From a virus, in IMG/VR virus record IMGVR_UViG_3300044977_000025, positions 1 through 24,742 of that record: a stretch of DNA of 24,742 nucleotides; one strand, given 5' to 3'. The position numbers and the translations under genes are program-made. Each line of letters opens with the position of its first letter. The stretch's first letter is position 1. This document shows positions 1,929-24,742 of the stretch, one piece after another. Below the pieces are notes generated by a model that did no database searches, was not told where the DNA came from, and saw only the letters and a list, made by a program, of their open reading frames with translations.

Positions 1929-3726
1929 CGTTCTCTTAGCCGACTTACGCGCTCCCGACCGCTTACAACGTCACGCTCTCCTCAAGCACATCGAATCGCT
2001 TACGGCGGGGAGTTCGAGTTGCGACATCTTACAATGGGCGACGCAGTTTATGCGTTACCCAAAATCGGACCGCTCTCCGATATTCGATCGCAACTTTGCG
2101 CCCCATTTAAATTTCCCGCTCGAAGCGTTCGCCTCCGGCAAGCATCGCATTATCTCGCTAATGGCGAATACCGGATTTGGTAAGTCGACGCTTATCGAAA
2201 CGGCAACGGCTTACATCGTCGCGGTAAGTCCCGGAGACATGGGAATTATTACGCAATCGGATAACGACTCCGCGACCTTTTCCGACACCCGATTACTTCC
2301 GACCTTAAGAGCCGTCGAACCCGTAGTCGCACTACTCCCAAACGACCGCTACTCGGTTAAGAAAGCGCAGATCGATTTCCCCCACATGTCGATTTTTATC
2401 GGCGGAGCGAATCTAACAACTCTGCAATCGAAGAGTCTCCGCTATGTCCTATTAGATGAGGCTTGGGTTTATCGCGGAGGCATGATTAAAGAGGCGCTGC
2501 ATCGAACGCACGACCGCTCTAATAGCGTCGTATTGGTAACGGGGCAGGCCGGTCTAGTCGGCGACGAGTTCGACGTGCTACACGAAACTTGCGCGAAGCA
2601 TGAATATAGTTGGCAGTGTTCCGCTTGCGAGCAATGGCACGCTTACGGATTCGAAAACATAAAGTGGAATCCGGACGCTAAGAATCCGGAGACTAACGAA
2701 TGGGTTTATGCGCGTATCGTCGAGACCTGCTTTATGCAGTGTCCGAATTGCGGCGCGGAATATCCGGACAACGAATTTACCCGAAGAGAACTAGCTTCTA
2801 AGGCGCAGTATCTTCCGACTCCCGGCGGTAATCCGATCCCAGGCCGCTTAGGTCTACATTGCCCTGCTGAGGGTGTCTGCTGGATTCCTTGGTCGACAAT
2901 CGCTCTCGAATTCATTCTAGCGAACGATGCGAAAAAGGCCGGCAACGATGTTCCGATGCGGCAGTGGCAGCAAAAACGAGAAGCTCGTCCTTGGCAGATG
3001 GAAAGCCACGAGTACGACATCCCGGAGATTAAATCCGGAGGCTATAAGCGTTCCGACTTTGAAGGCGATACTAAGATTGACGGCGAGGTTCTTCGCACGC
3101 TTACGGTCGACGTACAGCGCGACCACAACTGGCTTTTAGTAAACGCTTGGCGAGCGGACGGAACTTGCCGCGTGCTCCACTACGATGCTAGCGCCGACTG
3201 GGACGCGATTAAGGAGACGGCGAAGAGATATTATATCCCCTCCGCGCTTCAGGTTGGACTCGATAGCAACTATGACCCTTCGAAGGTTAATGCCTATTGC
3301 GCCAAGAATGGCACGCTTTCGCTCGTCGGTAATAAGGCGAAGTTCTTCGCGCACGTCGATAATAAAGGCAAGCCGCAGAAAAAACTATTCTCCAAAATTA
3401 ATAGTATTCTTATTAATAACATCCGGGCCAATCAAATCCTTTGGTCCTCGGAGAATGTTAAGGACATCTTAAATAGTATCCGCTCCCAAATTGAAATCCC
3501 CGACGATTTCGATAACACATTTTCGGACCAGATGTCGGCGGAGCGTAAGCAGTCCGTCATTTCTAAGACTACCGGCGAAACTTCTTGGCGTTGGGAAAAG
3601 ATAAGCCATCGAGCTAACCATAGTTGGGACGCTATGGCGATGTCGGTCGTCATCGCGCTAATGAGTAAGCGCGTCGTGTTCTCTTTTAAACCAGAAGTAA
3701 TTTCCGAAAGTAATTCTCAAGAGTGA
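1921..3726 (+). CDS. Terminase large subunit, lambda GpA family
   Basis: This is the ATP-driven motor and endonuclease that cuts concatemeric DNA and pumps it into the prohead through the portal. At 601 residues it is close to lambda gpA (641). The visible ATPase motifs are a Walker A-like loop (NTGFGKST, about 83-90) and Walker B (VLLDE, 176-180). Two CxxC pairs (C233/C236 and C274/C277) form the zinc-ribbon-like insertion usual in this family. The nuclease part has acidic residues in the expected motifs: TVDV with D397, GLDS with D448, and WDAMAM with D570 near the end. It overlaps the genes on both sides (ATGACTGA upstream, GTGA downstream), which indicates coupled translation. The GpA assignment is from motif order and length. 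Confidence 0.92.
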   Translation: MTDVLLADLRAPDRLQRHALLKHIESLTAGSSSCDILQWATQFMRYPKSDRSPIFDRNFAPHLNFPLEAFASGKHRIISLMANTGFGKSTLIETATAYIVAVSPGDMGIITQSDNDSATFSDTRLLPTLRAVEPVVALLPNDRYSVKKAQIDFPHMSIFIGGANLTTLQSKSLRYVLLDEAWVYRGGMIKEALHRTHDRSNSVVLVTGQAGLVGDEFDVLHETCAKHEYSWQCSACEQWHAYGFENIKWNPDAKNPETNEWVYARIVETCFMQCPNCGAEYPDNEFTRRELASKAQYLPTPGGNPIPGRLGLHCPAEGVCWIPWSTIALEFILANDAKKAGNDVPMRQWQQKREARPWQMESHEYDIPEIKSGGYKRSDFEGDTKIDGEVLRTLTVDVQRDHNWLLVNAWRADGTCRVLHYDASADWDAIKETAKRYYIPSALQVGLDSNYDPSKVNAYCAKNGTLSLVGNKAKFFAHVDNKGKPQKKLFSKINSILINNIRANQILWSSENVKDILNSIRSQIEIPDDFDNTFSDQMSAERKQSVISKTTGETSWRWEKISHRANHSWDAMAMSVVIALMSKRVVFSFKPEVISESNSQE

Positions 3727-4040
3727 CACGCGAACTTTTAATCCGCAGTATATGCGCCCGATTCTTAAACAACGTCGCTGGTTTGCAAGACCTAGTTGAC
3801 GCGAAGCTAGATGAGGTTTTGTCGCTAGATGGTCGCTCGATTACTTCGGTAAGCGAAAGCGGACGCTCCACTAGCTTTTCGATTCCGGTGAATATGAACC
3901 CGGAAGAGATTCACGCGCTACTCGCTAGAGCGTTACAAATCCTCACCGCCCACTCTACCTCGGCGATTCAGAATTGGCTTAAGTATCCGCCGACGACGGA
4001 AGTGCGTCCGCGCTACGGCAGGTACTGGTTCGGTGTTTAA
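3723..4040 (+). CDS. Head-tail joining protein, probably gpW-like
   Basis: The product has 105 residues; the start GTG 3723 overlaps the terminase stop by 4 bases. In lambda-like modules the gene between the large terminase and the portal encodes gpW, the small protein that seals the filled head and makes the site where the next connector binds. Here the central strand pair (SITSVSESGRSTSFSIP, about 40-56), a following helix (about 60-85) and a basic Arg-Tyr-Gly-Arg-Tyr end resemble the gpW pattern of a hairpin, a helix and an RRG-aromatic tail. The protein has an extra N-terminal helix, since gpW has 68 residues. GTAATTCTC lies 13 bases before the start. The identification rests on position and a loose pattern. 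Confidence 0.55.
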   Translation: MTRELLIRSICARFLNNVAGLQDLVDAKLDEVLSLDGRSITSVSESGRSTSFSIPVNMNPEEIHALLARALQILTAHSTSAIQNWLKYPPTTEVRPRYGRYWFGV

Positions 4041-4043
4041 TTT

Positions 4044-5738
4044 ATGGCTAAATGGCTTTCAAAACTTTTTCCTCCGCAGCGTAAGCTAGTTAGAGCGGCG
4101 AAAACAAAAATAGACTTCTCCGGTCTGTATGATTCGGCGATCACTACTTTTGATAGACCATTTCTTGGCTACTGGTCGACGGACGCCCATTTCCAGATTA
4201 GCAACTACGATCTTATGCGGCTCCGCTCAGATAGCCGCAAGATGTTTGCGAACATGGGGATTATTCGGGCTCCGGTTTTACAGCGCACGATGTACGCTTT
4301 CGGCGCGAACGGTTGGCGCCCACAATATACGGGCTCGGATAAGGACTGGGGAAATAAAGCGGTCCAATTATTAGAGTCGGACATTTTGCCGAACCTCGAT
4401 GTTCGCGGTGAGATGTATTCTTTCCAGAAGTCTCTTTCGTTAGCTAGTTCCGATATTGATCGCGACGGCGACATTCTCCTTCTCTTTACCGAGACGGACG
4501 AAGGACTCCCAGCGATCCAATGGATACCGGCGCACCGTATCGGCCAACGCACGAACGAGCGATTTATCGAAGAGGGGAAATACAAAGGCTGCGAAATGCA
4601 CCACGGCGTTATTACCCGCGATGAAGTGCCGGTAGCCTATCAAGTTATGGGCTCGAAGGCCGAAGAGGATACAGTTTTCGGCGTCGAAGATGCGATGTTA
4701 ATTTTTGATCCGGAGATTAATGGCTTTCCTCGTGGCGTTCCCGTTGCGTCTTTCGCGCTTAACTCTTTGAAAGACATGATGGTTAGCCAAGTCTACGAGC
4801 AGCAGGCGCTACAATTAGCTAGCCACATCGGTTTACTCGAAACGAATCCCGAGGGTGGCTCTGACGATTACAGCGCGATGATCGAGCAAGCGGAGAGAGA
4901 GTCTACTTGGTACGAAGCCGAAGGCGAAACGTCTCCGCCGGTTAATCCGAAAACGCTTCCCCCGATTTCTACCCAATCGATAATGGGTGGCGTCTACAAA
5001 TATTTTAAATCGAACACCGGCTCGAAGCTAGAAAGCTTCAAGTCCGAAAGACCGTCCGGAGAATGGCAAGCCTTTATGGATCGCTTGACGCGAGAATATT
5101 GCGCGGGCATTCCTTGGCCGTTCGAACTCGCCTGGTCTCCGGAGAAAGTAGGCGGAGCATCCGTCCGCTTAGTCGTCGGCCAAGCGCAACGCGCCGTCGA
5201 AACTCGTCAACGGTTATTCCTACCCGTCGCGAAGAGGATTATTAAGTATTCAATTTCGAAGTTAATCGAAGCCAAAGAGCTAGAAGAGAATGACGAATGG
5301 GATTCTTGGGGCTTTACGTATCCGCCGCGAATTAGCGTCGACGCAGGACGCGACGAACGGGCTCGAATCGATTCGTACAAGACTGGCATTCTTAACCTCG
5401 AGGAAATCTTAACCGAAGAGGGCAAGACGCTAGAGCACCATCTCGACCAACGTATCCACGAAACCGTAATGCGTGAGATGAAGGCTAAAGAAGCCGAAGA
5501 GAAATACGGCATTAAGATTGACCGCAACGAACTCTTGTCGCTCTTCGCAAATCCAGTAGCGGCAACCGGAGACGGCGCAGCGAAAGAAACTCCGGTGACC
5601 GTTCCCGAGGGCCCAGCGGTTCCCGCTCCCGCTCCGGATAAGGAAGCGATTCGCCAAGCCGTTGGGCCGTATCTCGGCTGGGGAGTCGAGACGGAGGAGC
5701 TAACCGAAAAGCTCTCGGCGGTAATTAAGCCTGAATAA
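4044..5738 (+). CDS. Phage portal protein, lambda gpB family
   Basis: Portal proteins form the dodecameric ring at one capsid vertex through which DNA enters and leaves, and they nucleate prohead assembly. This one has 564 residues, against 533 for lambda gpB. The N-terminal part (YDLMRLRSDSRKMFANMGIIRAP..., about 53-75) and the core DIDRDGDILLLF followed by IQWIPAHRIG match the lambda-type portal pattern. An Ala/Pro/Glu-rich tail (about 512-545) is low-complexity. The start ATG 4044 follows the previous stop by 3 bases with no Shine-Dalgarno, so reinitiation by ribosomes finishing the upstream gene is likely. The stop shares bases with the next start (TAATG). A long antisense frame lies opposite it but is a shadow. 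Confidence 0.88.
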   Translation: MAKWLSKLFPPQRKLVRAAKTKIDFSGLYDSAITTFDRPFLGYWSTDAHFQISNYDLMRLRSDSRKMFANMGIIRAPVLQRTMYAFGANGWRPQYTGSDKDWGNKAVQLLESDILPNLDVRGEMYSFQKSLSLASSDIDRDGDILLLFTETDEGLPAIQWIPAHRIGQRTNERFIEEGKYKGCEMHHGVITRDEVPVAYQVMGSKAEEDTVFGVEDAMLIFDPEINGFPRGVPVASFALNSLKDMMVSQVYEQQALQLASHIGLLETNPEGGSDDYSAMIEQAERESTWYEAEGETSPPVNPKTLPPISTQSIMGGVYKYFKSNTGSKLESFKSERPSGEWQAFMDRLTREYCAGIPWPFELAWSPEKVGGASVRLVVGQAQRAVETRQRLFLPVAKRIIKYSISKLIEAKELEENDEWDSWGFTYPPRISVDAGRDERARIDSYKTGILNLEEILTEEGKTLEHHLDQRIHETVMREMKAKEAEEKYGIKIDRNELLSLFANPVAATGDGAAKETPVTVPEGPAVPAPAPDKEAIRQAVGPYLGWGVETEELTEKLSAVIKPE

Positions 5739-6703
5739 TGAAAACTTTTCGCGCCTACGTTGGTAAATCTTTCGACAAGAAGACTGGCATTGCTAAAGGT
5801 GTCTCCGTTATTAGCGTTGGCCCCGCTCTCGGACACGGGACGAACGTAGATAAAAAATCTTTAGAGAGCGTCGTAGCAGCTTCTAAAGCCAGTCCGGATG
5901 GCGTCAAAGTCCATATCCAACACGATTCGGATGCGAAAGACATCGTTGGCTTCTTAAATAATTTTCAGCTCGATGGCGATAACGTCCGTGCGGATTTGAA
6001 GCTGGTAAGGATGTCGCCTTGGTTCGGTTACCTTTGCGAGCTTATCGAGACTAATCCTAGTTCTTTTGGCTTGAGTATTTCCTTCGACGGAACCGAAGAG
6101 ATGGTTAACGAGGCGAGCTTTATCCGAGTCAAAGATTTGTTCTCTGTCGACCTAGTTTCTAGTCCCGCGGCAAATTCGTCCGGGTTGTTTAGTTCGAAAG
6201 TAATTAAGGGTAAGAAACTTATGGCAGATGAATCCCAGACCGCCGAAAAAGTCGCGTTAAGCGATGCGGATGACGAACTAGCTAGTCGTGTCGGACTCCT
6301 TGAAAAAGGGTTCGCCGATATGAAAAGCGCTTTCGATGCAATGGCCGATAACTCCGATAACGGGGATGACTCCTCGAACGGAGACGACGACGACGAAGAG
6401 CAAGCAGAGGACGATGAGTCCGATAGCTCCGATGACCTCGCGAAAGTAAAAGCCGAACTCGCAGCGGTTAAAGCCGAAAACGAAAAGCTTAAGGCGGAAA
6501 AAGTTTCCGGCGAAAAGCTAGCGGCTCGTAAGCTGGCTACGACTGGCGTAAAGGCCGGTGCCCGCCCGAAGACCGAAGCGGCTTCGCCGAGTATCGTGCA
6601 GCAATATAAGGCTCTTAAGTCCTGTAGCGAACAGCTAAATTTCTATCGGAAGCATAAAGCAGAATTGCTCGAACACCGAGAAGAACTAGCGGAGAAAAAG
6701 TAA
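5738..6703 (+). CDS. Prohead maturation protease fused to a scaffold
   Basis: The product has 321 residues. The N-terminal half (about 1-155) looks like a prohead protease: VKVHIQHDSDAKDIVGFL holds candidate catalytic His residues, FGLSISF a candidate nucleophile Ser, and DLVSSPAANSSGLF is the strand-turn seen in several head proteases. It does not look like the ClpP-type protease of lambda C. From about residue 162 it changes to a scaffold: a very acidic low-complexity run (about 205-236), a Lys/Glu/Ala coiled coil (about 238-275) and a helical C-terminus. Scaffold fused behind protease, removed by self-cleavage, is a common head-assembly plan. It overlaps the portal stop and has GTAATTAAG 17 bases upstream. 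A likely internal start at 6221 is listed separately. Confidence 0.78.
   Translation: MKTFRAYVGKSFDKKTGIAKGVSVISVGPALGHGTNVDKKSLESVVAASKASPDGVKVHIQHDSDAKDIVGFLNNFQLDGDNVRADLKLVRMSPWFGYLCELIETNPSSFGLSISFDGTEEMVNEASFIRVKDLFSVDLVSSPAANSSGLFSSKVIKGKKLMADESQTAEKVALSDADDELASRVGLLEKGFADMKSAFDAMADNSDNGDDSSNGDDDDEEQAEDDESDSSDDLAKVKAELAAVKAENEKLKAEKVSGEKLAARKLATTGVKAGARPKTEAASPSIVQQYKALKSCSEQLNFYRKHKAELLEHREELAEKK
6200..6221 (+). promoter_or_regulatory. Internal translation start signal inside the protease-scaffold gene
   Basis: GTAATTAAGGG at 6200-6210 lies 21 bases before an in-frame ATG at 6221. The same GTAATTAAGG string stands before the sheath gene (9519) and the fibre gene (16873). Here it sits inside a gene, exactly at the protease-scaffold boundary. 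Confidence 0.5.
6221..6703 (+). CDS. Possible separately translated scaffold, nested in frame in the protease gene
   Basis: An in-frame ATG at 6221 would give a 160-residue protein made only of the scaffold half: acidic run, coiled coil and helical end. The start is preceded by GTAATTAAGGG at 6200, a string otherwise found before true gene starts in this window. Nested in-frame scaffolds are well known, for example lambda Nu3 within C, where many scaffold copies are needed per protease. The distance from motif to ATG (21 bases) is longer than at the other genes (12-17), which weakens the case. It would serve as the internal core on which the capsid protein assembles. Confidence 0.45.
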   Translation: MADESQTAEKVALSDADDELASRVGLLEKGFADMKSAFDAMADNSDNGDDSSNGDDDDEEQAEDDESDSSDDLAKVKAELAAVKAENEKLKAEKVSGEKLAARKLATTGVKAGARPKTEAASPSIVQQYKALKSCSEQLNFYRKHKAELLEHREELAEKK

Positions 6704-6713
6704 TTAACGACAT

Positions 6714-7604
6714 ATGGCGAATACCTTCACAAATTTAAATTATACCATCCTCTCGGATACGGTTTTCGAGGAATATGTCGCAAGCATTGCTCCTCTTAAA
6801 ACTTTCTCCTTAGATGTGAGTCCGAAACCAGCCGAGCGTGGTACTATCGTTCAGGCTCTTTTCGTTCCGACCCAGAACGCAGCTTCTAACTTTACCGACG
6901 GCACCGGTTACACTATCGGAAACCTAACGGCTACTTCGGTCCAAGTTACCTTAGACGAACACCCGTTCGTTTCGGCTGGCTTAACCGACACGCAAATCAC
7001 GAACATGCCTCAAGTTAATCTTGAGAAGTTCGGTAACCAGCTCGGATTCCAGCTCGGTAAGAGCGTCTTCCAGACGATCATGGGCGGATTCGTTTCCGGC
7101 GGTGGCGCTAACCAATATCCAAATACTTATGCTTCGAGCGGTTCGCTTAACGTCGCAAAAGTCATCGCTATCGGTGAAGAAGCAGATAACCTTTTCTGGC
7201 CGGAAAATGATCGTACCTTGATCGTTCCTCCGTCGCAGTACGCTTCGCTCCTAAGCGATCCTAACTTACTCAAGTATCTTGAATACGGTTCCGACGAACC
7301 TATCAAGAAGGGTGTCATTCCGAAAGTTGTCGGCTTCGACATTATTAAGAGCACGATCCTTCCGAGCAACGTTCAATTTGGTCTCGCGGTCCGCTCCGAC
7401 GCTATGGCGGTCGGTATGCGTCCGCTATTGGTAGCGGAGTCTCACGACTACTATCAATTGGATACGATGACGAGCGCAGAAGGCTTCGTTATCACGTACC
7501 GTCGCTGGTACGACCGTTCGCTTGGTCAAGACCAAGTGGTTTGGGAATGCGTCTACGGTTTCGAGCCTGGCTTGACCGAAGCAGCGATCATCTTCACTTC
7601 TTAA
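6714..7604 (+). CDS. Major capsid protein, HK97-like
   Basis: This is the protein that forms the icosahedral shell. It has 296 residues and is Cys-poor, with a mix of beta segments and helices fitting the HK97 fold. The N-terminus (NYTILSDTVFEEYVASIAPLKTF) resembles the helical N-arm of the group, and the central part (VAKVIAIGEEADNLFWPENDRTLIVPPSQY) the usual assembly of residues before the A domain. It follows the protease-scaffold gene, as expected. ATG 6714 has GTAATTAA 14 bases upstream. An intrinsic terminator follows the gene at once, which would set high expression of the head genes apart from what follows. Identification is by position, length and general pattern. Confidence 0.85.
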   Translation: MANTFTNLNYTILSDTVFEEYVASIAPLKTFSLDVSPKPAERGTIVQALFVPTQNAASNFTDGTGYTIGNLTATSVQVTLDEHPFVSAGLTDTQITNMPQVNLEKFGNQLGFQLGKSVFQTIMGGFVSGGGANQYPNTYASSGSLNVAKVIAIGEEADNLFWPENDRTLIVPPSQYASLLSDPNLLKYLEYGSDEPIKKGVIPKVVGFDIIKSTILPSNVQFGLAVRSDAMAVGMRPLLVAESHDYYQLDTMTSAEGFVITYRRWYDRSLGQDQVVWECVYGFEPGLTEAAIIFTS

Positions 7605-7627
7605 AAATTCAACCCATAACTCAAGAG

Positions 7628-7654
7628 AACCCAGGCTTAACGGCCTGGGTTTTT
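7628..7654 (+). terminator. Strong intrinsic terminator after the major capsid gene
   Basis: AACCCAGGC at 7628-7636 pairs perfectly with GCCTGGGTT at 7643-7651 around the 6-base loop TTAACG, and a T-run (7650-7654, then CTTT) follows directly. This is a textbook Rho-independent terminator, 24 bases after the capsid stop. Confidence 0.9.
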
Positions 7655-7677
7655 CTTTGTCGGGTATTTCTCTTAAA

Positions 7678-8037
7678 GTGTTCGCGAATCCTTTCAACGT
7701 TAGCCTCCTGGCCGGCCACAGAGATTTAATCCGAGTCTCCGGAGAGTTTCGCGAAATCTGGTTCGCGGACGGGCTCGACGGGGAAACTTATTGCAAAGTA
7801 AAGTGCCTGTGGATTCTCGGTAACGAGGGCATCGTTCGGTTGCGCAATATTTTGGATACGCAGCTTTCGGACTACGACGTGACGATGATCGTCGAGCGGT
7901 CCCAGCTTCCGTTTACCGAAGCGATTCCCCCCGGCAGTTATCTACGCTCTCCGATAGAACAAAAATTGAATGTCGAACATTCTCTAGAGTTCGCGGGCGT
8001 GATTACGCTCCGCCTCAATTACCCGGTTACGCGTTAA
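7678..8037 (+). CDS. Unknown protein, possible head-tail connector
   Basis: The product has 119 residues and no recognised family. It has the look of a small beta-rich connector, with several strands (ISLKVF, LIRVSG, YCKVKCLWILG, DYDVTMIVE) and the end FAGVITLRLNYPVTR. The position after the capsid gene and before tail terminator-like and GpZ-like genes supports a neck or connector role. The frame is open to a TTG at 7657, but that codon lies within the terminator's T-tract. GTG 7678 has GTATTTCTC 14 bases upstream, the signal seen at other genes, and is preferred. Its TAA stop overlaps the stop of the opposite-strand gene through TTAA at 8034-8037. The gene lies beyond the terminator, so it needs read-through or its own promoter. 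Confidence 0.65.
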   Translation: MFANPFNVSLLAGHRDLIRVSGEFREIWFADGLDGETYCKVKCLWILGNEGIVRLRNILDTQLSDYDVTMIVERSQLPFTEAIPPGSYLRSPIEQKLNVEHSLEFAGVITLRLNYPVTR

Positions 8038-8585
8038 TCTTTCGCCTTATTGAAATTCTCGGCGATAACCTGGGCCGCGTGGATCGCTCTCTCCGTAAAG
8101 ACTTTCTGTACCAAATCCTCGATTGTCTTATTGAGCCGTTGTCCCGATACCATCGCGGGAACCGAGAGACCCATAAGGGTTTGTAACGGGAAACGCTTCT
8201 TGGTCCGGCGCACGAATAAATTTCCGCCGTATTGGGCGACATTAAACGCGCTGGCGAGCGTGGTCGTTTTTCCGACCAATTCCCGAATCGTAACCGGACC
8301 TTTCGATTTGCCTCCGATTTGGAAACGACTTAACGGGAACTTCTGTCCGGAGTAGTTGAGGAACGCCGCAAGACGGCTCGGGGAAGCTCGGGAAATCGTA
8401 AGGGTAGACGCTACCTCTTTCGCTTTAACCGCGAAGCTAGACCGTACTGCGCGGCTTACAGCGGTCTTACCGCGTGTAGCGGCTTCGTTCGTAGCGCGAG
8501 CGAGAGCTTTATTCACGCCATTAGGGACTTTCGCGAGAAGATTCTCTACACGTTTTAGGTCCGAAGTGTTTAGCGAAATATTCAT
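8034..8585 (-). CDS. Minor tail protein, GpZ-like
   Basis: The product has 183 residues. The N-terminus (NDLKRVENLLAKVPNGVNKALARATN), the pattern of Ala-rich helix then RGKTAVSRAVRSSFAVKAKEVASTL, the strand QKFPLSRFQIGGKSKGPVTIREL, GNLFVRRTKKRFPLQTLMGLSVPAM, and a C-terminal helix match the prophage minor tail protein Z family. That family acts at the head-proximal tail end during joining of tail to head. It is the last of three genes on the - strand, read after a tail terminator-like protein and a tiny membrane peptide whose TAA touches this ATG. Its stop overlaps that of the convergent gene by 4 bases. Confidence 0.75.
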   Translation of the reverse strand: MNISLNTSDLKRVENLLAKVPNGVNKALARATNEAATRGKTAVSRAVRSSFAVKAKEVASTLTISRASPSRLAAFLNYSGQKFPLSRFQIGGKSKGPVTIRELVGKTTTLASAFNVAQYGGNLFVRRTKKRFPLQTLMGLSVPAMVSGQRLNKTIEDLVQKVFTERAIHAAQVIAENFNKAKD

Positions 8586-8648
8586 TTAGTCTCTGCACGC
8601 GATAATCGTGACGAGAATCGCGACGAAAAGTAGCCATTCGGGAATCAT
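8586..8648 (-). CDS. Tiny hydrophobic membrane peptide coupled to its neighbours
   Basis: A 20-residue frame on the - strand fills the gap between two tail genes exactly. Its ATG (8648-8646) overlaps the TGA of the upstream gene (ATGA), and its TAA (8588-8586) is followed at once by the ATG of the GpZ-like gene at 8585. The peptide begins MIPEW and then has a run of 13 mostly hydrophobic residues (LLFVAILVTIIAC) before a charged end, so it should span or enter a membrane. It is too short for usual gene finders. The IIAC could even act as a weak lipobox, though there is no basic N-terminus. It may be a real membrane peptide or a spacer read only to couple the two neighbours. Confidence 0.45.
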   Translation of the reverse strand: MIPEWLLFVAILVTIIACRD

Positions 8649-9274
8649 ACGTCTGTCGTTCCGTCCTCGGAAATCGGCGGAACGTATCCTGGCACCGGGA
8701 GTTCGTAATCTTCATTCAAGACGGGGCACGGAACGCCGAAGGCACAGTTAATAAGCCCGACCGTAACGGGTCCCAGTTCCCCTTCCGGATCATCGATAAG
8801 ACCTTGGGTTAGGCTATGCTCGTCGTGGAGCATAAAGCCCGGTAAATTCCATTGAATGTTACCGTCAAAATCGGCGGGCGGAATCGCGACGGTTGTAAAG
8901 ATTCCGTACGTAACGGTTTCTAATAGCGTTCGCGTATCGGTCTCGGCTCCGTCTAGCGGATCATCCGACCAACAGGCTACGGCAATATCCACTTCGCAAA
9001 CGCCATAATCGCGGAGCGTATAAACGATGCTCTTCGGCCGCACGATTACTGTCGGGTAAGGCGGAAGCGCGTTGTTCTGTTTAAAACCTGCTAACTTCTG
9101 CGGGATCTTTCCGGCCCATACGCTCGGGTTTACATATGCGCGCTTCTGTCCGGAACCGGGGATTGGGTTAGTCGAAGAGAGAAATTGGCACTCTGCGCCT
9201 GAAGTCCAGTGTTTTATAATCGCGACTAGCGCACGCTTTAAGTCGTTGGCTGTATAACGGAGCGGGAGTTCCAC
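8645..9274 (-). CDS. Probable tail terminator or tail completion protein
   Basis: The product has 209 residues from GTG 9274 (reads MELPLRYTANDLKRALVAII). The frame is open up to an ATG at 9385, but that would overlap a likely gene on the other strand, and the extra residues look unlike a protein start. GTG 9274 has GTATTTAT 12 bases upstream on the - strand. The N-terminal helix, the segment YPTVIVRPKSI, and then a strand with VDIAVACWSDD followed by a long helix (RTLLETVTYGIF) resemble tail terminator proteins, which cap the tail tube and join it to the head. The C-terminal tail is acidic and Pro-rich. It is first in the three-gene - strand block. The function is inferred from pattern and place. 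Confidence 0.6.
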   Translation of the reverse strand: MELPLRYTANDLKRALVAIIKHWTSGAECQFLSSTNPIPGSGQKRAYVNPSVWAGKIPQKLAGFKQNNALPPYPTVIVRPKSIVYTLRDYGVCEVDIAVACWSDDPLDGAETDTRTLLETVTYGIFTTVAIPPADFDGNIQWNLPGFMLHDEHSLTQGLIDDPEGELGPVTVGLINCAFGVPCPVLNEDYELPVPGYVPPISEDGTTDV

Positions 9275-9278
9275 GCCG

Positions 9279-9300
9279 ATAAATACCTGTCGGTATTTAC
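9279..9300. promoter_or_regulatory. Divergent start region between a - and a + gene
   Basis: The 33-base gap between GTG 9274 (-) and ATG 9308 (+) carries a GTATTTAT on the - strand (from 9286 leftward) and GTATTTAC on the + strand (9293-9300). These lie 12 and 15 bases before their start codons. There is too little room for two full promoters with untranslated leaders, so any transcripts starting here would have very short leaders. Confidence 0.45.
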
Positions 9301-9307
9301 TCGGGCG

Positions 9308-9505: not shown

Positions 9506-9533
9506 CTCTTTCTCGAAAGTAATTAAGGAAAGA

Positions 9534-11063
9534 ATGGCTACTAGTTACGCGCACGGGATTTATTCTAATACACTTTCGACTCCGGTTATCCCACCGGTAC
9601 AAAGCGCCGCCGGAGCGATCACCGCTGTAGGTCGTGCGCCCGTCTACCAGCTAAACGTTCCGTGTACTTCGAGCGGCTACGCTTCCGTTGTTAACGTTGC
9701 GATCGTTTGTAATAACCAATCCGATTTTTCGACGAGCTTCGGAAATATCACCTCTAATTTCTCGAAGTACGGACTAGCTGGCACCGCTTACTCGGTCTTG
9801 ACTCTTTTTAACGCTGGTCCGGTTTACGCGATCAACGTTTTCGATCCTTCGGCTCCCGGTAATAACACGACCGTTACCGATGCGACTATTACTTTCACCG
9901 ACAACGCTTCGGCTATTGCCGCGCAGGTTTGCCAAGGTTCTATCGTCCTAACTTCCGGTGGCGTCACGTTAACCAACGTCGCCAACCCGGGTGGCGTAGA
10001 CTTCTCGGTTAGCTATTCCGCCGACGGTAATACTTGCACGATTGAGTTGCAGCCGTCCTCGAGCTATTACTCGATCTCTTCGGCGACAATCTCCTATAAA
10101 GCTGCGGTTCCGACGAACGTCACGAATACGACTATTGCGGGTGGCGTCGACGAAAACGGAAATCGTTCCGGTATCGCGGTCATCGATAATGTTTATCAGC
10201 AAACCGGCAATGTACCGATGGTTTGTATGGCTTCCGATTTCGCGGATGACCCTACGGTCTTCGCTACCGGTCAAGCCAAAGTCCAATCTATCGGCGGACA
10301 ATTTACCGGCCACTGGCTCGGTCAAGTTTCCGCGACTGCCGTTCCGTATTGGACTGGCGTCGAAGTTTGGAAAACGATCACGGCTAACTTCGTTTCCGAA
10401 TGGGCGACAATTGCTTGGCCGAACGGAAGCCTAAACGGTGTCGAGATTCTCGGCGTTAACTTCCTCGCAGGAAACTTTTCGCAGGTTACGGCGCAGAACG
10501 GTCTGGGAGTTCCTTTCTGGTCTCCGTCGAACTATCCGCTTCCGATTACGGCGACCGTCGCTGGTACGAACGGCGCGGTTAATGTTTTCCTAAGTCAAGA
10601 AGATGCGAACTCCTTAAACGGAATCGGCGTCTGGACGATGCGAAACGATCAGGGCTGGATTAGCTGGGGCGACAATACTTCGATTTATCCGACTTCAACC
10701 GACCCAGCTTGGCGTTGGATTCCGGTTAACATCATGTTCCGATGGATGGGTAACCAACTTGGGTTGCTACTCCGTCCCTTCCGCGACGTGCCGGGAAATC
10801 TTCGCAATCTAACCGATTGCGCGGCTTCGATTAAGCAATTCGGTAACGGACTTGTAGCGGTAGGCGCACTTAATACGTTCGCCCTTACTTTCCCGACAAC
10901 GACTAACACGGTCGTGACGGTAGAGGACGGAATCTACAACTGGCAGTTAGCGGTTACGCCTCCGATTCCGATGGAGCAAATTTACCTTAACTTCTTCTTC
11001 GATTCTAACTCGCTCGCTTCGTGGATCGAGGCGGTTAGCTCTTCCGTGGTTGGTAATTCCTAA
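9534..11063 (+). CDS. Tail sheath protein
   Basis: The sheath subunit surrounds the tail tube and contracts to drive it through the host envelope. The product has 509 residues. The start (YAHGIYSNTLSTPVIPPVQSAAGAITAVGRAP) matches the usual sheath opening, where a conserved N-terminal arm is followed by a GxAP turn. The C-terminal domain (RWIPVNIMFRWMGNQLGLLLRPF... EDGIYNWQLAVTPPIPMEQIYLNFFFDSN) matches the conserved sheath core of the P2 FI type, with the C-terminal strand that links to the next subunit. The middle is Thr/Asn/Ser-rich and less conserved. The leader GTAATTAAGGAAAG has both the GTAnTT element (15 bases upstream) and a fair Shine-Dalgarno. It shows that the tail is contractile. 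Confidence 0.9.
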   Translation: MATSYAHGIYSNTLSTPVIPPVQSAAGAITAVGRAPVYQLNVPCTSSGYASVVNVAIVCNNQSDFSTSFGNITSNFSKYGLAGTAYSVLTLFNAGPVYAINVFDPSAPGNNTTVTDATITFTDNASAIAAQVCQGSIVLTSGGVTLTNVANPGGVDFSVSYSADGNTCTIELQPSSSYYSISSATISYKAAVPTNVTNTTIAGGVDENGNRSGIAVIDNVYQQTGNVPMVCMASDFADDPTVFATGQAKVQSIGGQFTGHWLGQVSATAVPYWTGVEVWKTITANFVSEWATIAWPNGSLNGVEILGVNFLAGNFSQVTAQNGLGVPFWSPSNYPLPITATVAGTNGAVNVFLSQEDANSLNGIGVWTMRNDQGWISWGDNTSIYPTSTDPAWRWIPVNIMFRWMGNQLGLLLRPFRDVPGNLRNLTDCAASIKQFGNGLVAVGALNTFALTFPTTTNTVVTVEDGIYNWQLAVTPPIPMEQIYLNFFFDSNSLASWIEAVSSSVVGNS

Positions 11064-11068
11064 ACTTT

Positions 11069-11599: not shown

Positions 11600-11675
11600 T
11601 CGACCCACTAAAAAGGGTACGTTTTCTTTTAGCGTTAGGATCTGACGCGGTCCCTGTCGGGTAGTTATTCGTAAT

Positions 11676-12154: not shown

Positions 12155-12163
12155 TTCTCTGTA

Positions 12164-14431: not shown

Positions 14432-14928
14432 AAACCTGCCGCGTGGGCGTTAGCTGTCGCGTTTGCGAGTTCCTGCGCCGAAGCCTGGTGCACGCCGATT
14501 ACGTTAGAGTTCGAGCTACCGCTAGAAGCGCCATAAGTGGTCGTATAATTTAAGCACCGTTGTAGCGTCACCGTCGTTGTACTTCCCGCGCTTCGCGTTA
14601 CCGTATGCGTTACTTGGACGACGATACATTTCCCGTCGATGATCGTACCGAATCCGGAAAGCTGGTAATTTTGACCGGAACGGATAGAAAGTGAGAGCGG
14701 GAGAAGTAAGCGGATTACGTTTCCTTTCCGGTTCTTTTTATGTAGCTCCGACTTCGCCACATTATTCATTTGCGGCGTCTGCGTTTGGGACTTTTGACCC
14801 GAGTCTGGGTCTACGAAAGCGGTGTCGGATTGTGGAGTGGGATTAGTCAAGATAGTTTTGGTTCGGTTGAAAAGTTTTAGTGTGGACCTTATCCGTCGGC
14901 GGAGCATCCGGATCTTGAAACGTCCCAA
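14428..14928 (-). pseudogene. C-terminal part of late control protein D, separated by a frameshift
   Basis: This - strand frame (166 codons from a TTG at 14928) holds the C-terminal half of a GpD-like hub protein. GNVIRLLLPLSLSIRSGQNYQLSGFGTIIDGKCIVVQVTHTVTR followed by TTTVTLQRCL is the usual end of the family. Upstream of about 14867 its translation is basic and unlike a protein, so it is not an independent gene. It continues the frame ending at 14843 after a +1 change in reading frame near 14847-14867. The tail after LNYTTTYG (rich in Ser, Asn, Ala) is variable. Joining the two parts gives about 414 residues, close to the family length. It may be made by recoding, or this may be a genuine lesion or base error; see the finding. 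Confidence 0.7.
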
Positions 14929-15673
14929 CGTGATTTCTACCCGTCGCGGCGTTCATCGCGGAGATTTGAGAGGCGGCATAAACATCTTCTAAGTTATAAT
15001 CGTAGTCCCAATCTAGTAGCCCACCCACTCCGTTTAGTCCCCCCGGCTCGGTAATCGTCGCGACGACGGGAGCCGCTTCTAAAGCGATCCTATCGAAAAC
15101 ATAGATTTGCCCGTTTTGCACTTTATAGTCCAGACCATTCGCGTCGCAATTCCGCTTTAATAACACGAAATCGCTCTCGTTTACTTGATCGCTTCGGGTA
15201 ATGGGGAAATCGGTAGCCGTGTACTTCGGCGTCATTCCGTTTCGCGCCGCAATTTGGGAAGTTAACTGGCTTAAGGTGGTCGCGGAATAGCCTTGGCTCT
15301 TCCCCGCTAATCGAGCGGACTTCGACACCGGGCAAGAGTTCGCTTTAATGCTTACTCTCGCTCCCGCTTTAACGTCACGTTTTACTTTAATTCTATCGAT
15401 CTCGAAGCTTCCATAGTTTCCAGTCAACGTCTGTCCGCCGATGGTAGCTTTAATTGAGAGAGTTATCGGATTGCCGCCTTGAAAGACTTGTACTTTCCGA
15501 AAACGTCCGTCCGGATCTTCAAGATTAATTTCGACGGAATCGGATTTACTGTCGATAGTGTCCGTGTATTTTAGCGAGTTTAAACTCGCCATAATCGTCG
15601 CCGTAATGTCTGTGCCGTTGTAGCCGACAACCGGAGACGCGACAATCACAGGATTAGTAAAAGGGGAACTCAT
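14843..15673 (-). pseudogene. N-terminal part of late control protein D (GpD), ends early by frameshift
   Basis: The product has 276 residues. GpD-like proteins form the trimeric hub at the tip of the tail, holding the spike and meeting the tube. The pattern of NPVIVASPVVGYNGTDITATIMASLNSLKYTD, then SVEINLEDPDGRFRK, matches the N-terminal tube-like domain of the family. A CPVSK... AGKSQGYSATTLSQLTSQIAARNGM stretch (about 118-145) and ATDFPITRSDQVNESDFVLLKRNCDANGLDYKVQNGQIYVFD follow, the region that carries the Q-SD-DFL-LA motif of the D proteins. It stops at TAA 14843-14845, just before the conserved C-terminal region, which continues in another frame. It starts 4 bases after the V gene's stop. 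Confidence 0.75.
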
Positions 15674-15677
15674 AAAA

Positions 15678-16334
15678 TTAGCACTCGTTCGTCGACAAGC
15701 CGTCGGAATTTGTCATGTGCGGTTCGGCTGTCGGAGCGGCTTGACTCGTCGCCGCAAAGAAGTCCGCTTTTAAGGTTGCGCCGGCAGGAAGAGTAACGTT
15801 TCCGTTCGGATCTATCGTGACCTTGTTTACGACTACGTTCGCAGAACTAGTTATGGTAATCTGGCCCTGGGCGTTAATCGTAATCGTCGAAGCCGTCGAG
15901 GTTAACGAAATCGCATTTTGAAATTGCAGCGCGGCGGACGATGCTGTACCCGACATCCAAAGCCTAGAGGCTTGCGGGTCATAATCGAATATCGTTCCGT
16001 CAGCCCACGAGATATTTAACGAATCGATGCTTTGCGTATTCGGTCCGGAGAGATTCGTCGTGTAGTGCGCGCCCTCGCAGATTCCGGTTTCTATCGCGCC
16101 GCTCGGATGGGAGCATTGTACGGTTTCGTTAAGTCTTGGTAGGTGGTAGACCTTTACTCCGGTGCAAGACGTTACGCGGACGGGTAACCACCCGGAAGTT
16201 AACCCACGGTCCGGATAATAAACTTGTACCGAGGGAAAGGGAGTCTGGCGTCTGGCTACGACTACGCCAATACGAAAGACATTCCCTAAGCGGGTATCTC
16301 CGTTGGCTGTCCCATAATCGTGTTCGTCGAACAT
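15678..16334 (-). CDS. Baseplate assembly protein V (spike)
   Basis: V forms the trimeric spike at the tip of the contractile tail. The product has 218 residues, near P2 V (211). The N-terminal part (YGTANGDTRLGNVFRIGVVVARRQ, about 7-30) then VQVYYPDRGLTSGWLPVRV is the OB-fold start of the family. The region after SGPNTQSIDSLNISWADGTIFDYDPQA is the start of the beta-prism. The repeats SLTSTASTITINAQGQITITSSANVVVNKVTIDPNGNVTLPAGATL (about 144-188) are the beta-helix of the needle. The C-terminal end AEPHMTNSDGLSTNEC does not show the HxH iron-binding tip of some phages. GTAATTACC stands 14 bases before ATG 16334 on the - strand. It is the first gene of the reversed D-V block. Confidence 0.88.
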   Translation of the reverse strand: MFDEHDYGTANGDTRLGNVFRIGVVVARRQTPFPSVQVYYPDRGLTSGWLPVRVTSCTGVKVYHLPRLNETVQCSHPSGAIETGICEGAHYTTNLSGPNTQSIDSLNISWADGTIFDYDPQASRLWMSGTASSAALQFQNAISLTSTASTITINAQGQITITSSANVVVNKVTIDPNGNVTLPAGATLKADFFAATSQAAPTAEPHMTNSDGLSTNEC

Positions 16335-16339
16335 CGCTC

Positions 16340-16349
16340 GGTAATTACC
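16340..16349. promoter_or_regulatory. Ten-base palindrome GGTAATTACC between divergent V and U genes
   Basis: The palindrome lies in the 18-base gap between ATG 16334 (-) and GTG 16353 (+) and puts a GTAATTACC 14 bases before the V start and 12 bases before the U start. The same GGTAATTACC stands at 22577-22586 before the fibre gene. It is either a bidirectional start signal or a two-fold protein site. Confidence 0.55.
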
Positions 16350-16352
16350 CGA

Positions 16353-16862: not shown

Positions 16863-16886
16863 TTCCGCGCGGGTAATTAAGGGGAA

Positions 16887-18353: not shown

Positions 18354-18356
18354 AAT

Positions 18357-18917: not shown

Positions 18918-18936
18918 GGAAAGTATTTACGGAGCG

Positions 18937-20202: not shown

Positions 20203-20203
20203 T

Positions 20204-22573
20204 ATGTCTTTCGCTCCAATCCAACTGGCGGCGCAGTTCGCCCAAATCGCATCGAACTATAATAGTGGATCCTCGGATAGTATCTCGGCTCCTTTTGCTA
20301 GCCCAATCCCGGCGGGAACTCCGATCCCAGTTTTTGTAACTTATAAAGGAGTGGCTACTCCGACCGTTACGGATAGCGAAGGAAACACTTATAATCTCGT
20401 AGAAAGCGAACTATTAACGGTTTCCGAAAACTGTTATATCGGCTATTTCCTTTGCTCTAGCGGCAGGCAACCGGTTAGTCCGAACCTACTAACGGTTAGT
20501 GTAAACACCAGTGTAAATGTAACCGCGTTATTTGTTGTCGCGCTGCAACCTCAATATTACTCGGCGAATACTACTTTCGATTTAGGAAGTATTCACGGCA
20601 ATACTTCATCGGGAACGACCAGCGATCCGACAATCACTACCACTCTAGCGAATACAGACGAAACGCTATTGGTAATGGTATATGGGGGTGCCGGAGGCGG
20701 TTCTGTAACCGCGCAAACCGGCTGGACTAATCTCGCAAGTAACGCCAACGGAGCGATGCTTGTTTCCAAAGTGGTTACCACTAGCGGCTCTTATGTCGCC
20801 CAGCCTTGCGTTTATCCCGGAACGCCTCCCGTCACGATGGTCTGTGTGGCGATGATTAGCGGTTACGCTCCGATTGGCTTAACCACTGGTTCCAATGGTA
20901 AACTCCTACCCCAAGGAGAAACCGAATTGCGTAACTTCGGGGATACAATCTCCGCCATGCAGGCGAGCGTTTCCTGGGGTTATCCTTTTTGTACCGGCGT
21001 AACCTTACGGGTAAATTGGAGTGACCTACAACCTAATCCCCCAACCGGAAATGCCGAAGTCGATTTTGAGTGGGCCTATATCGATGCGGCTCTCGCGCAA
21101 GCGCAAAGCTACGGAAAAATCATCGGCTTGATACTCGGACTCGGAGAGTCAGCGCCGTCTTGGGTGCTAAGCTCCGGGTGTACGCTTTTTTATATTAGTA
21201 CCGATGAAGCCTACGTCCCTGCGCCTTGGGACCAGTACTATCAAGTACAGCTTACCTACTTAGTAAACGCCATAGCTCAACGTTACGACAATAATCCGAA
21301 TCTCGCCTACGTAACTATGTCCGGATTTGGATGGCACGACGGGATGGCCTTCTGCCGCTCGACGGCGGATAACAACGCGCTTTACGCGACGACGTATAAC
21401 GGCGTAACCGGACTACAACTGCTTCAAAACGCTTTCGAAGCGATTTGCCTCATCTATCTAACCGCGTTTCAAAAGACACGTTTAGAGTTAATTTTTTACA
21501 GCCCGATTAATCCGGATAATTACACGACGCAACCGACCGTCGTGCCTTGGGTACAATGGCTCCTTGGCGTTGGGGGATCGCAGGTCGGGATAGATTGGCA
21601 TAATCTTGGCACGGCGTCGTGGTTCGATACGGGAAACGAATCCGATAACTTTGTCCCCTACGGATTAATCCAAGAATATAGCGTTACGAATTTGAATGGG
21701 GTTCAACCAGAACACGCGACTTCAAGCGATATTCCGAACCTCATTATTGCCGCTTCTTCTATCGGGGCAAGTTTCCTCGAGACCTATATCGGGCAGCTCG
21801 AATACGATACAAGCACTTTCGGAGTTAACTGGCAAGGCACCGCGGCGATGCTAAATTTCGTCGCCGAATTTTGGAAACCGTTTACACCCTATACTCCTCC
21901 GCTACCGCCTCCGGCTCCAACGCCAATACCTTCTTTTATCCCTGCTAATCCCATCGCGGCGCCAATTATTAATCCAGGCGTGAGTCTGGAATCGATTCCC
22001 GGTGGATCGCTAGTCGATTATCTCAATCCGCTTCTGCAACAAGATGCGGCGTCCGTTACTTTAATGCAGACGCTAGACGAGTTGTTTTCGCAGATGGTGG
22101 ATTTAATTCCGCTAAACACGATCTACGCGAATCTCCCGAACCAACCGGAAGCGGTTTTAGACTTTCTTGCGGTGTATTGTTTTAATACCGATTTTTACGA
22201 TTACTCTTTATCCTACGCGCAGAAGCTTTGGTTGGTCCAAAACTGTATTCTCTTTAAAGAGATCAAGGGCACGAAGGCAGTTTTGGAAATGGTTATTTCG
22301 AACCTCTACGCTAACGCCAAAGTTATCCAGTGGTTCGAACCGGGCTTCTCAGTTAACGGCTCCCCGCCCGTCGTGCCTTACACGTTCCGCCTAAATATCG
22401 GCGGAGACCTTACTAACCAAACCTTGCTTAATAAGATCAACGCTCTCGTTTTAGCGTACAAGAATGTAAGAAGTCTTTGCGTAACGATTAATCCGATTTC
22501 GTTCGGCAATACAACCAATTACGTTGGGGTCGCAGCTAGCTGTTACCGCAAGTACATCGTGTGGTCGTCTTAG
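20204..22573 (+). CDS. Tail protein I fused behind a beta domain and a glycoside hydrolase-like barrel
   Basis: The product has 789 residues, about four times P2 I (176), in three parts. Residues 1-220 are a Ser/Thr-rich beta sandwich (VTDSEGNTYNLV, then LLVMVYGGAGGGSVTAQTGW), like domains on adhesive or surface proteins. Residues 227-560 resemble a TIM-barrel glycosidase: GVTLRVNWSDLQP, then FEWAYIDAALAQAQSYGKIIGLILGLGESAPSWV, NPNLAYVTMSGFGW, and GASFLETYIGQLEY. A Pro-rich linker runs at about 560-580. Residues 595-789 are Tail_P2_I-like: SLVDYLNPLLQ, LPNQPEAVLDFLAVYCFNTDFYD, KEIKGTKAVLEMVI, IQWFEP. It lies after W and J, where I is expected. The usual Asn-Glu of clan GH-A is not seen at the fourth strand (MSGFGWHDG), so activity is uncertain. 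Confidence 0.75.
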   Translation: MSFAPIQLAAQFAQIASNYNSGSSDSISAPFASPIPAGTPIPVFVTYKGVATPTVTDSEGNTYNLVESELLTVSENCYIGYFLCSSGRQPVSPNLLTVSVNTSVNVTALFVVALQPQYYSANTTFDLGSIHGNTSSGTTSDPTITTTLANTDETLLVMVYGGAGGGSVTAQTGWTNLASNANGAMLVSKVVTTSGSYVAQPCVYPGTPPVTMVCVAMISGYAPIGLTTGSNGKLLPQGETELRNFGDTISAMQASVSWGYPFCTGVTLRVNWSDLQPNPPTGNAEVDFEWAYIDAALAQAQSYGKIIGLILGLGESAPSWVLSSGCTLFYISTDEAYVPAPWDQYYQVQLTYLVNAIAQRYDNNPNLAYVTMSGFGWHDGMAFCRSTADNNALYATTYNGVTGLQLLQNAFEAICLIYLTAFQKTRLELIFYSPINPDNYTTQPTVVPWVQWLLGVGGSQVGIDWHNLGTASWFDTGNESDNFVPYGLIQEYSVTNLNGVQPEHATSSDIPNLIIAASSIGASFLETYIGQLEYDTSTFGVNWQGTAAMLNFVAEFWKPFTPYTPPLPPPAPTPIPSFIPANPIAAPIINPGVSLESIPGGSLVDYLNPLLQQDAASVTLMQTLDELFSQMVDLIPLNTIYANLPNQPEAVLDFLAVYCFNTDFYDYSLSYAQKLWLVQNCILFKEIKGTKAVLEMVISNLYANAKVIQWFEPGFSVNGSPPVVPYTFRLNIGGDLTNQTLLNKINALVLAYKNVRSLCVTINPISFGNTTNYVGVAASCYRKYIVWSS

Positions 22574-22592
22574 CCCGGTAATTACCAGGTGA

Positions 22593-24233
22593 ATGGCTAA
22601 TTTCAACTTAACGGTCACGAACGTCGGGGATTCCGCGCTTTCGAGCGTTACCGCTGGTGGATCCTTTAATATCACCGGAGTTTCCTTTGGTAGCGGTCAA
22701 ATCGGTTCGGGTAATCCGCAAGCCCTCACCGCCTTAATTAATCCGCAATATTCCGAGAATATTCAAAACGCGAATGTGCTAGTCCAATTTCAAACGAGCA
22801 TCGAGTTTATTCTGGCTGAGTCCGCGATTCCGGTAAGCTTCTCTAACTATGAAGTCGGCGTTTTTGCGAGCGTTAATGGTGGTTCCCCGCTTCTGTTCGC
22901 TTATGGCTATACGACTTTACCCGACAATTTAACGGCGGGCGGAACTCAAACCTTTGATTATGTCCTTGGGATTAAGTATAGCCAAACGGCGCAAGTCACG
23001 GTTTCCCTTGTTAATACGATGTCGGTTCCGCTTCACGCGGCAACTCACATCTTAGGAGCTTCTGGACCTGGAGGGGGAATCGACCCGCTTCCCGTCGCGA
23101 CTTCCTTGCTTCCCGGTCTCGTCCCAACGTCAACGAATACAGGGGCGAAAGTCTTAACCGATACCGGAACCGTAAGCTGGCAAGCTCTCCCGGCGCAAAA
23201 CATCGGTTCCCCGATTTTAGTAAATGGAGACTTCTCCGTTCAAAGCCGTTCGGATGGTACCCTCGGCGGGTCAATCTCCGGAGGCGCAGCTTATCTTCTC
23301 GATAACTGGTATCTCAATAGTTCCGCTAGCATACCGCACGTTAGCGCGACGTGGAACGAATGGGACGGAACTTTTACGCCAGACGCGGTTTTTAAAAACC
23401 CGAAAGGCTTCGTTCGCTTTTCCTCTACCCAAGCCGTTTCTACTAGCTCTTTCCTCGATTTAAACACCTACATCGAAGCGAACGATTTAGACACGGCAAT
23501 CGGTTACGCCTGCGTGCCTTCGACTTTAATTCGCTGTTCGACCGCCAACCAGAGTTTACTTATGTATTGCCAAAGTGGTGATGGGACTTTCCTCTTCGGA
23601 AATCTCGTTACGCTTAGTAGCTCTTGGCAACGGTTCTCCTTTTCGCTTCCGTCCTCTTGGCCCGCCTTTAGTCATTTTAACCGCGATACTCTCGCGGATC
23701 TCGCGAAGCTTGGGTTGACGCTCTCCTTCCGGATTATTTCGACGAGTAGCGGGAGCGTACCGGCGAGCAATAACACGTGGACGACATCGACAACGAGCGG
23801 CTCCGCGTGGAATCCGTTTACGGGTAGCGGCTCGACTTTCGACATCGCCGATGTCCGTTTCGACGCAAATTGTAGTTCCGTTCAAAATCCGATTTTCGAG
23901 CCGCAACAAAATACGTATGACCGATGCTTACGACTCTACGAGCCGAACATTACCTACGTCGGCATCATCAACAATCTTGTCGGAGGCACGACCACCTCGA
24001 TTGGGAGCGGAAATTACCGGGTGGCAAAACGCATCCTTCCGAAAAACTTCACAGCTAGCAGCGGTCTCGGTAACGGAACGTTACAAATCTTGGGACAAGA
24101 TAGTGGTCGCACGATTACGGGTATTGGTACGGGCGGAAATCTTCTTGGCTTTAACCAGATTCAAGCCGGTGGCTATTCGGAAGATGTCGGCAACGGCTGC
24201 TATGCTTTAGTAAACGCGGACTCTTCTTTCTAG
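22593..24233 (+). CDS. Tail fibre protein, H-like, with C-terminal carbohydrate-binding-like region
   Basis: The product has 546 residues. The N-terminal ~150 residues (ALSSVTAGGSFNITGVSFGSGQ, then ALTALINPQ, YEVGVFA, FAYGYTTLPDNLTAGGTQTFDYVLGIKYS) have the pattern of the collar domain by which P2 H-type fibres bind the baseplate. HAATHILGASGPGGGIDPLP then ATSLLPGLVPTSTNTGAKVLTDTGTVSW is the hinge and one copy of a shaft repeat like that of the 16887 gene. The C-terminal part begins VNGDFSVQSRSDGT, then AYLLDNWY, and later has FEPQQNTYDRCLRLYEPNI, a pattern of phage carbohydrate-binding fibres. It is probably the host receptor-binding protein. GGTAATTACCAGGTGA stands before ATG 22593. Confidence 0.8.
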   Translation: MANFNLTVTNVGDSALSSVTAGGSFNITGVSFGSGQIGSGNPQALTALINPQYSENIQNANVLVQFQTSIEFILAESAIPVSFSNYEVGVFASVNGGSPLLFAYGYTTLPDNLTAGGTQTFDYVLGIKYSQTAQVTVSLVNTMSVPLHAATHILGASGPGGGIDPLPVATSLLPGLVPTSTNTGAKVLTDTGTVSWQALPAQNIGSPILVNGDFSVQSRSDGTLGGSISGGAAYLLDNWYLNSSASIPHVSATWNEWDGTFTPDAVFKNPKGFVRFSSTQAVSTSSFLDLNTYIEANDLDTAIGYACVPSTLIRCSTANQSLLMYCQSGDGTFLFGNLVTLSSSWQRFSFSLPSSWPAFSHFNRDTLADLAKLGLTLSFRIISTSSGSVPASNNTWTTSTTSGSAWNPFTGSGSTFDIADVRFDANCSSVQNPIFEPQQNTYDRCLRLYEPNITYVGIINNLVGGTTTSIGSGNYRVAKRILPKNFTASSGLGNGTLQILGQDSGRTITGIGTGGNLLGFNQIQAGGYSEDVGNGCYALVNADSSF

Positions 24234-24625
24234 TGGCTAACACGGTTTACACTACTTTTAAAACCGCGCTGCTAGACGGAACGATAAACCTAGCCACGGC
24301 CAATCTTTGGGCGTTAATTTCTACTTCCGGTTACACGCCGAACTACGCGACGGATAGCTTTGTATCCGTCATCGCTCCGATTTTATCGAGGGTTGCGCTA
24401 ACCGGAATAACCGTTTCGAACGGCTCGCTCTTCGCGAACGACCCAACGTTTCCCGCCGTGAATTCGGGCAGCGTAGTAACGCAAGTTATCGTCTATATAA
24501 ATTCCGGTTCGGACGCTACTTCCCAATTAATCTGCACTTTCAATCAAGCGTGCCCCGGATTACCCGTCGCAACTAACGATGGAAATATAGAGGTGCAATG
24601 GGTAGGCGAAATCTTCTCTCTCTAA
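24233..24625 (+). CDS. Small unknown virion-associated protein after the fibre
   Basis: The product has 130 residues. Its GTG start (24233) overlaps the fibre TAG (TAGTG), so the two genes are coupled. The frame has no signal peptide or membrane span. The pattern KTALLDGTINLATANLWALISTSGYTPNY, then APILSRVALTGITVSNGSLFANDPTFPAV and VIVYINSGSDATSQLICTFN, resembles a family of small phage structural proteins in fibre regions with no known function. It could decorate the fibre or aid its folding; the data do not tell. It is beta-rich and ends VQWVGEIFSL. Confidence 0.65.
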   Translation: MANTVYTTFKTALLDGTINLATANLWALISTSGYTPNYATDSFVSVIAPILSRVALTGITVSNGSLFANDPTFPAVNSGSVVTQVIVYINSGSDATSQLICTFNQACPGLPVATNDGNIEVQWVGEIFSL

Positions 24626-24641
24626 AGAGTATTTAAACGCG

Positions 24642-24742
24642 ATGGCTGATATTGAAATTGTAAACGAACCGGCTCCGGAGCCTAAGCGTGGACCTTGGGT
24701 TAACGCAGGCGGACGTGGACGAATGGAATGTACCGTCCGTTT
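24642..24742 (+). CDS. Start of an unidentified gene, cut by the window edge
   Basis: ATG 24642 has GTATTTAAACGCG 13 bases upstream, the start signal of this window. Thirty-three codons are visible, reading MADIEIVNEPAPEPKRGPWV and continuing with a basic, Gly/Arg-rich part. Nothing identifies it yet. A small protein next to the fibre would be expected, such as a fibre chaperone or a further structural protein. Confidence 0.55.
   Translation, partial: MADIEIVNEPAPEPKRGPWVNAGGRGRMECTVR

Follow-up and report, generated by a model that had tools for sequence, protein, structure and literature searches.

A 24,742-base virus contig from IMG/VR (hereafter the window) carries a short box, consensus RGTAWTTM, whose G lies 12–15 nt before nearly every uncoupled structural gene start. 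We think it probable that this box forms the core of a phage-specific promoter for late genes, with mRNA 5' ends on the start codon or no more than a few bases from it. The window, part of the genome of an uncultured phage with a contractile tail, covers a structural module comprising terminase subunits, portal, protease/scaffold, major head protein (gene 6714, the major capsid gene by its PHROG match), neck, sheath, head closure, tape measure, baseplate, and fibres. The neck and the baseplate hub/spike genes run leftward (8034–9274 and 14843–16334) in an otherwise rightward module; the hub/spike inversion is kept in the relative L211 (4787–6622). Its nearest named portal relatives are a Puniceicoccales phage and an Akkermansia phage; portal relatives also occur in genome assemblies of Verrucomicrobium sp. 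and Haloferula, and genes related to the terminase large subunit (TerL) of a second relative, G391, in 15 of 388 verrucomicrobial genomes. Because portal and TerL relatives occur in Verrucomicrobiota, a verrucomicrobial host is likely.

The copies of the box and the features next to them are as follows (d, distance from the G of the box to the start codon):

545..552, +: orphan box (G at 546), no start codon 10–24 nt downstream
785..792, +: loose form GTATTAG before 800, d = 14
3709..3716, +: box within the TerL coding sequence, before 3723 (the gene that lies between TerL and portal), d = 13
5720..5727, +: doubtful box-like copy within coding sequence, ahead of coupled start 5738, d = 17
6199..6206, +: box-like copy 21 nt before internal ATG 6221, inside the protease/scaffold gene, doubtful
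6699..6706, +: box before the major capsid gene 6714, d = 14
7626..7657, +: strong intrinsic terminator with an 8–12-pair stem and a T-rich tail, immediately before the 7664 box
7663..7670, +: box before 7678, d = 14, between terminator and start codon
9280..9287, –: box before leftward gene 9274, d = 12
9292..9299, +: box before 9308, d = 15, next to the 9286 box and divergent from it
9518..9525, +: box before the tail sheath gene 9534, d = 15, kept in L211
11052..11059, +: doubtful box-like copy within coding sequence, ahead of coupled start 11069, d = 16
11660..11667, +: box GTAGTT before 11676, d = 15, GTACTT in L211
12150..12157, +: box before the tape measure gene 12164, d = 13, kept in L211
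16340..16347, +: palindromic box GTAATTAC before 16353, d = 12, kept in L211 with other flanks
16342..16349, –: the same palindromic box GTAATTAC read leftward, before 16334, d = 14
16872..16879, +: box before 16887, d = 14
18922..18929, +: box before the baseplate J gene 18937, d = 14, kept in L211
22577..22584, +: box before the tail-fibre gene 22593, d = 15
24628..24635, +: box before 24642, d = 13

The orphan at 546 lies in non-coding DNA upstream of gene 800 and the terminase genes, a position resembling that of a G391 copy at 25965. A second GTAATT is found at 3697, near the 3709..3716 box. Translation from the internal ATG at 6221 would yield a scaffold-like C-terminal product of the protease gene, resembling the nested scaffold genes of other phages. 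RNA from the 355-nt non-coding stretch before the terminase genes (445–799), which contains the orphan, is predicted to be very strongly structured (MFE z –6.9), with no family matched in an Rfam search.

All GTAnTT coordinates and distances listed in the initial annotation were correct on recheck, and the box itself is confirmed. The word is no more abundant in the window than chance predicts (52 copies vs. 52.7 expected), but its placement is not random: 16 of the 52 are 11–17 nt before a same-strand start, and the signal lies entirely in this positioning. A start-agnostic test used 27 stop-defined ORFs, allowing every in-frame start within 120 nt. Among plain and one-gap 6-mers, GTA.TT was the top word 11–17 nt before starts (14 of the 27 genes); at 15 shifted offsets taken as controls the best word reached only 3–5 genes. 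A second, differently built word scan gave the box a corrected p of 2.6e-13. The fuller consensus, RGTAWTTM, comes from 16 copies aligned on the G; with one base relaxed it has 22 matches in the window, 16 of them at starts. The trustworthy spacing is 12–15 nt. Copies at 16, 17, and 21 nt (11069, 5738, and 6221) fall within coding sequence, ahead of coupled or internal starts, and could be chance matches.

According to the initial annotation, starts that touch or nearly touch the previous stop lack the box, except 3723 and 5738, which overlap a stop. An additional GTAnTT is found at 11053, 16 nt before coupled 11069. The leftward start at 8585, counted there among the touching ones, is 59 nt from the previous annotated stop, but a small ORF, MIPEWLLFVAILVTIIACRD, ends exactly there, and the start therefore still counts as touching; this hydrophobic 20-codon ORF (8586–8645, minus strand) is between two leftward genes and touches the next start.

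Two relatives share the box. L211 (IMGVR_UViG_3300044713_000202) was found by baseplate J alignment and shares the tail module, including the two leftward genes, with sheath proteins 79% identical. The box is its main conserved sequence upstream of uncoupled starts, present 12–15 nt before all eight and before none of the fully coupled ones; start 1637, with a gap of 5, has only a GTAGTT at 23 nt. For the divergent genes 16334/16353, L211 retains the palindromic box, and the flanking arms change in step (CTCGG/CCGAG to CGTCG/CGACG). G391 (IMGVR_UViG_3300050821_023325, 39.8 kb; L299/L300) is more distant, its TerL 42% and its portal 41% identical to those of the window. From its sequence it looks like a nearly complete temperate phage genome; an integrase is encoded, and both ends of the record lie within one leftward tape-measure gene. 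Its box is stricter, GGGTAMTTCTW, with 13 exact copies vs. 0.09 expected from shuffles. Eleven are 13, 16, or 17 nt before structural (late) gene starts; the other two, one ~140 nt ahead of terS and one ~120 nt ahead of the capsid gene, are not close to any usable start. Box starts make up 10 of 34 in the structural part and 0 of 17 elsewhere (p = 0.02), and the portal and sheath genes lack the box despite gaps of 14 and 25 nt.

Promoter activity, the transcription start sites, a link between a sigma factor and the box, the host, and the leaderless state of the mRNAs are inferred. A phage-encoded sigma factor, probably without –35 recognition, would direct host RNA polymerase to RGTAWTTM, for which GGGTAMTTCTW would be the G391 counterpart of the single element. 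Transcription would start ~6–9 bp downstream of the box, on the start codon or only a few bases away, leaving most late mRNAs leaderless or nearly so. Genes touching the previous stop would be co-transcribed and translated by coupling through an A/T-rich junction, and so would need no box, while the one palindromic box at 16334/16353 would serve both directions.

The main rival, which we consider unlikely, is an mRNA translation-initiation signal resembling the start-associated sequences (SAS) of cluster K mycobacteriophages. A protein or RNA of phage or host origin would bind it, and it would take over from the Shine-Dalgarno (SD) sequence at uncoupled starts. This reading is suggested by the tight spacing to the start codon and the split between coupled and uncoupled starts, and parts of the probable host group are poor in SD sequences (PMC10783764). 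In many other phages the SD stands where the box does, and the absence of the box at coupled starts is also what a ribosome-binding site would show, so position alone does not decide between promoter and translation signal. The start-less copies, the two in G391 and the window orphan, favor a promoter, as do the confinement of the G391 box to structural genes and its absence from the uncoupled portal and sheath genes there. Sequence context points the same way. At coupled starts, whose messages must have leaders, the sequence from stop to start (stop codons omitted) is A/T at 27 of 28 positions, a preference absent at box starts, where the last 5 nt are A/T at only 50 of 115 (p = 8e-8). If the messages had leaders, openness of the start region would be 0.37 at box starts, lower than at random sites (0.435, p = 0.048) or coupled starts (0.53, p = 0.005), and at L211 start 9017 a perfect 9-bp hairpin would lock the start. 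Against the promoter, the first 12 nt of a leaderless transcript are no more open at box starts than at random, and the G391 context tests, although in the same direction, are weak (A/T p = 0.02; folding not significant). In favor of the translation signal, some boxes are set in inverted repeats with arms that vary from copy to copy; the inverted-repeat signal is significant over all 34 copies (permutation 3/3000) but not in the window's own non-divergent boxes alone. By inspection, the box is not complementary to the conserved 16S tail. The initial annotation's suggestion of an AT-rich initiation enhancer next to a weak Shine-Dalgarno is disfavored by the G391 exceptions as well as by the A/T-poor spacer and a start region that is not unstructured; AGGAGG-like words occur 5–13 nt before window starts once, vs. 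1.0 expected.

Its other suggestion, a –10-like box giving leaderless mRNAs, fares better as to a promoter, but not as a host –10. That the phage has borrowed a host –10 of the kind found before leaderless genes in Deinococcus or actinobacteria is most improbable, although the position fits leaderless promoters generally (PMC12340547). TANNNT precedes none of the 27 window starts (1.3 expected); base six of the box, counted from TA, is A or C rather than T, so it is not a TANNNT of the sigma70 type. The box also differs between phages of the same group, and 388 genomes of Verrucomicrobiota, the likely host phylum, show no strong enrichment that would indicate host-wide use. We attach just as little probability to an operator or processing site, that is, a repressor or stoperator-like site, or an RNase site trimming mRNAs to leaderless form. 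The palindromic GTAATTAC at some starts would fit this, and the distribution recalls phage stoperators and SAS, but only some copies are palindromic, and the fixed spacing to start codons and the way the box follows strand speak against a plain operator.

Several arrangements further favor a phage promoter. A strict positional consensus, with neither SD nor any conserved –35 upstream of the aligned window copies, is kept at every uncoupled L211 start. The strong terminator directly before the 7664 box is the only strong one in the structural part; since terminators are similarly arranged at the major capsid gene in boxless relatives, it could be partial. Between divergent starts, which are separated by 18 and 33 nt, there is hardly any non-coding space in which other promoters could fit. 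The window has few sigma70-like sites (4 vs. ~19 expected), which is not strong support because some boxless relatives are also depleted of them.

A candidate for the sigma factor is encoded in G391 immediately upstream of the terminase genes (terS), a finding that also favors the promoter. This 334-aa protein (L299, 13893–14897, minus strand) matches the sigma70-ECF superfamily TIGR02937 (E = 8e-9), at 35.3 bits below the cut-off of 42.9, and Pfam Sigma70_r2 weakly, also below curated cut-offs; only region 2 was detected. Its low score and its presence in one relative only count against the promoter. Its sole match in the 388 verrucomicrobial genomes resembles a host ECF sigma. An AlphaFold model from the one sequence was discarded (pLDDT 44). 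The left edge of the window falls where such a gene would be expected, which likewise counts against the promoter; the first ORF, which runs off that edge, has no homology to the G391 protein.

Many short, phage-specific late promoters without a classical –35 are also found in T4 (TATAAATA, with gp55, gp33, and gp45). The phiKZ and AR9 late promoters are similar in these respects (PMC5312081), but are read by a multisubunit phage RNA polymerase, have TATG and AACA-N6-TA/G motifs, and in AR9 give leaders of 26–491 nt. The box looks like a relative of the single-element promoters of phiEco32, a precedent that favors the promoter. The phiEco32 sigma factor gp36, without recognizable region 4, uses one element (tAATGTAtA) and no –35, with transcription starting 6–8 bp downstream (PMC8948821). 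Applied to the window box, that distance falls on the start codon; window start codons are 5–8 nt past the box core. As in phiEco32 and the related phage 7-11, a single short element differs between related phages, and its placement before structural genes parallels that of the phiEco32 promoters before middle and late genes (PMC8948821). The phiEco32 sigma factor is phage-encoded; here the candidate is the sub-cut-off match in G391. The differences are in the consensus and in number: phiEco32 has only a handful of promoters, and leaderless mRNAs are not reported in the parts of that source cited here (PMC8948821). In Deinococcus-Thermus, a promoter core likewise stands just before the start, the –35 is optional, and mRNAs are leaderless, but the element is TANNNT, used host-wide with a host sigma factor (PMC12340547).

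Descriptively, the nearest precedent for a phage box tied to gene starts is the SAS of actinobacteriophages in clusters K and EF: short, conserved, close upstream of many starts, in one orientation, lineage-specific, and sometimes with inverted repeats (PMC3203893, PMC7302621). They are 13 bp long with an SD-like core 3–7 bp from the start, and in cluster K precede non-structural genes only. The box described here has no SD-like core or AGGAG and precedes structural genes; most copies are at starts, but 2 of the 13 exact G391 copies and 546 break the tie to the start codon.

A broader generalization is attractive but somewhat more doubtful than not: in this phage lineage, probably infecting Verrucomicrobiota, nearly every late gene or gene pair would have its own leaderless mRNA from a start-proximal single-box promoter read by a phage sigma factor, with box and sigma drifting together and palindromic boxes driving two divergent leaderless genes. 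If so, late transcription units could be read off the sequence in a phage group about which little is known, start-codon calls would be firmer, and a compact sigma-promoter pair would be at hand; late mRNAs without leaders would also be in systematic use by phages, in a phylum of which at least some members are low in SD use. Should the translation reading be true instead, an SD-independent initiation signal would be at least equally interesting.

Elsewhere the box is rare. In ~280 other phage loci, including most with the head genes of the window, it is absent, with matches near the chance rate (11 in 4,212 genes vs. 6.7, two of them in L215, which is part of G391). Relatives identified by portal also lack it, except that L157, which is close by portal score, has one copy at d = 17. 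TerL-family prophages, looked at in 14 stretches of verrucomicrobial genomes, have no box either. Scans of viral sequences with single proteins (baseplate J, TerL, or portal) yielded no relatives, and an Rfam search nothing. A motif-only scan with AGTAATTAAGG-N3-5-ATGGC returned 23 contigs, all chance matches. By unbiased word search, GTA.TT is the top start word only in the window, L211, and G391; in other phages it is mostly the SD (AGGxGG). Another start word, (G)TTGAC(A), is found ~17–25 nt before starts in L083, L092, L150/L156, L183, L320, and L324, which are Verrucomicrobiota phages or prophages; it is too near the start for a normal –35 plus leader.
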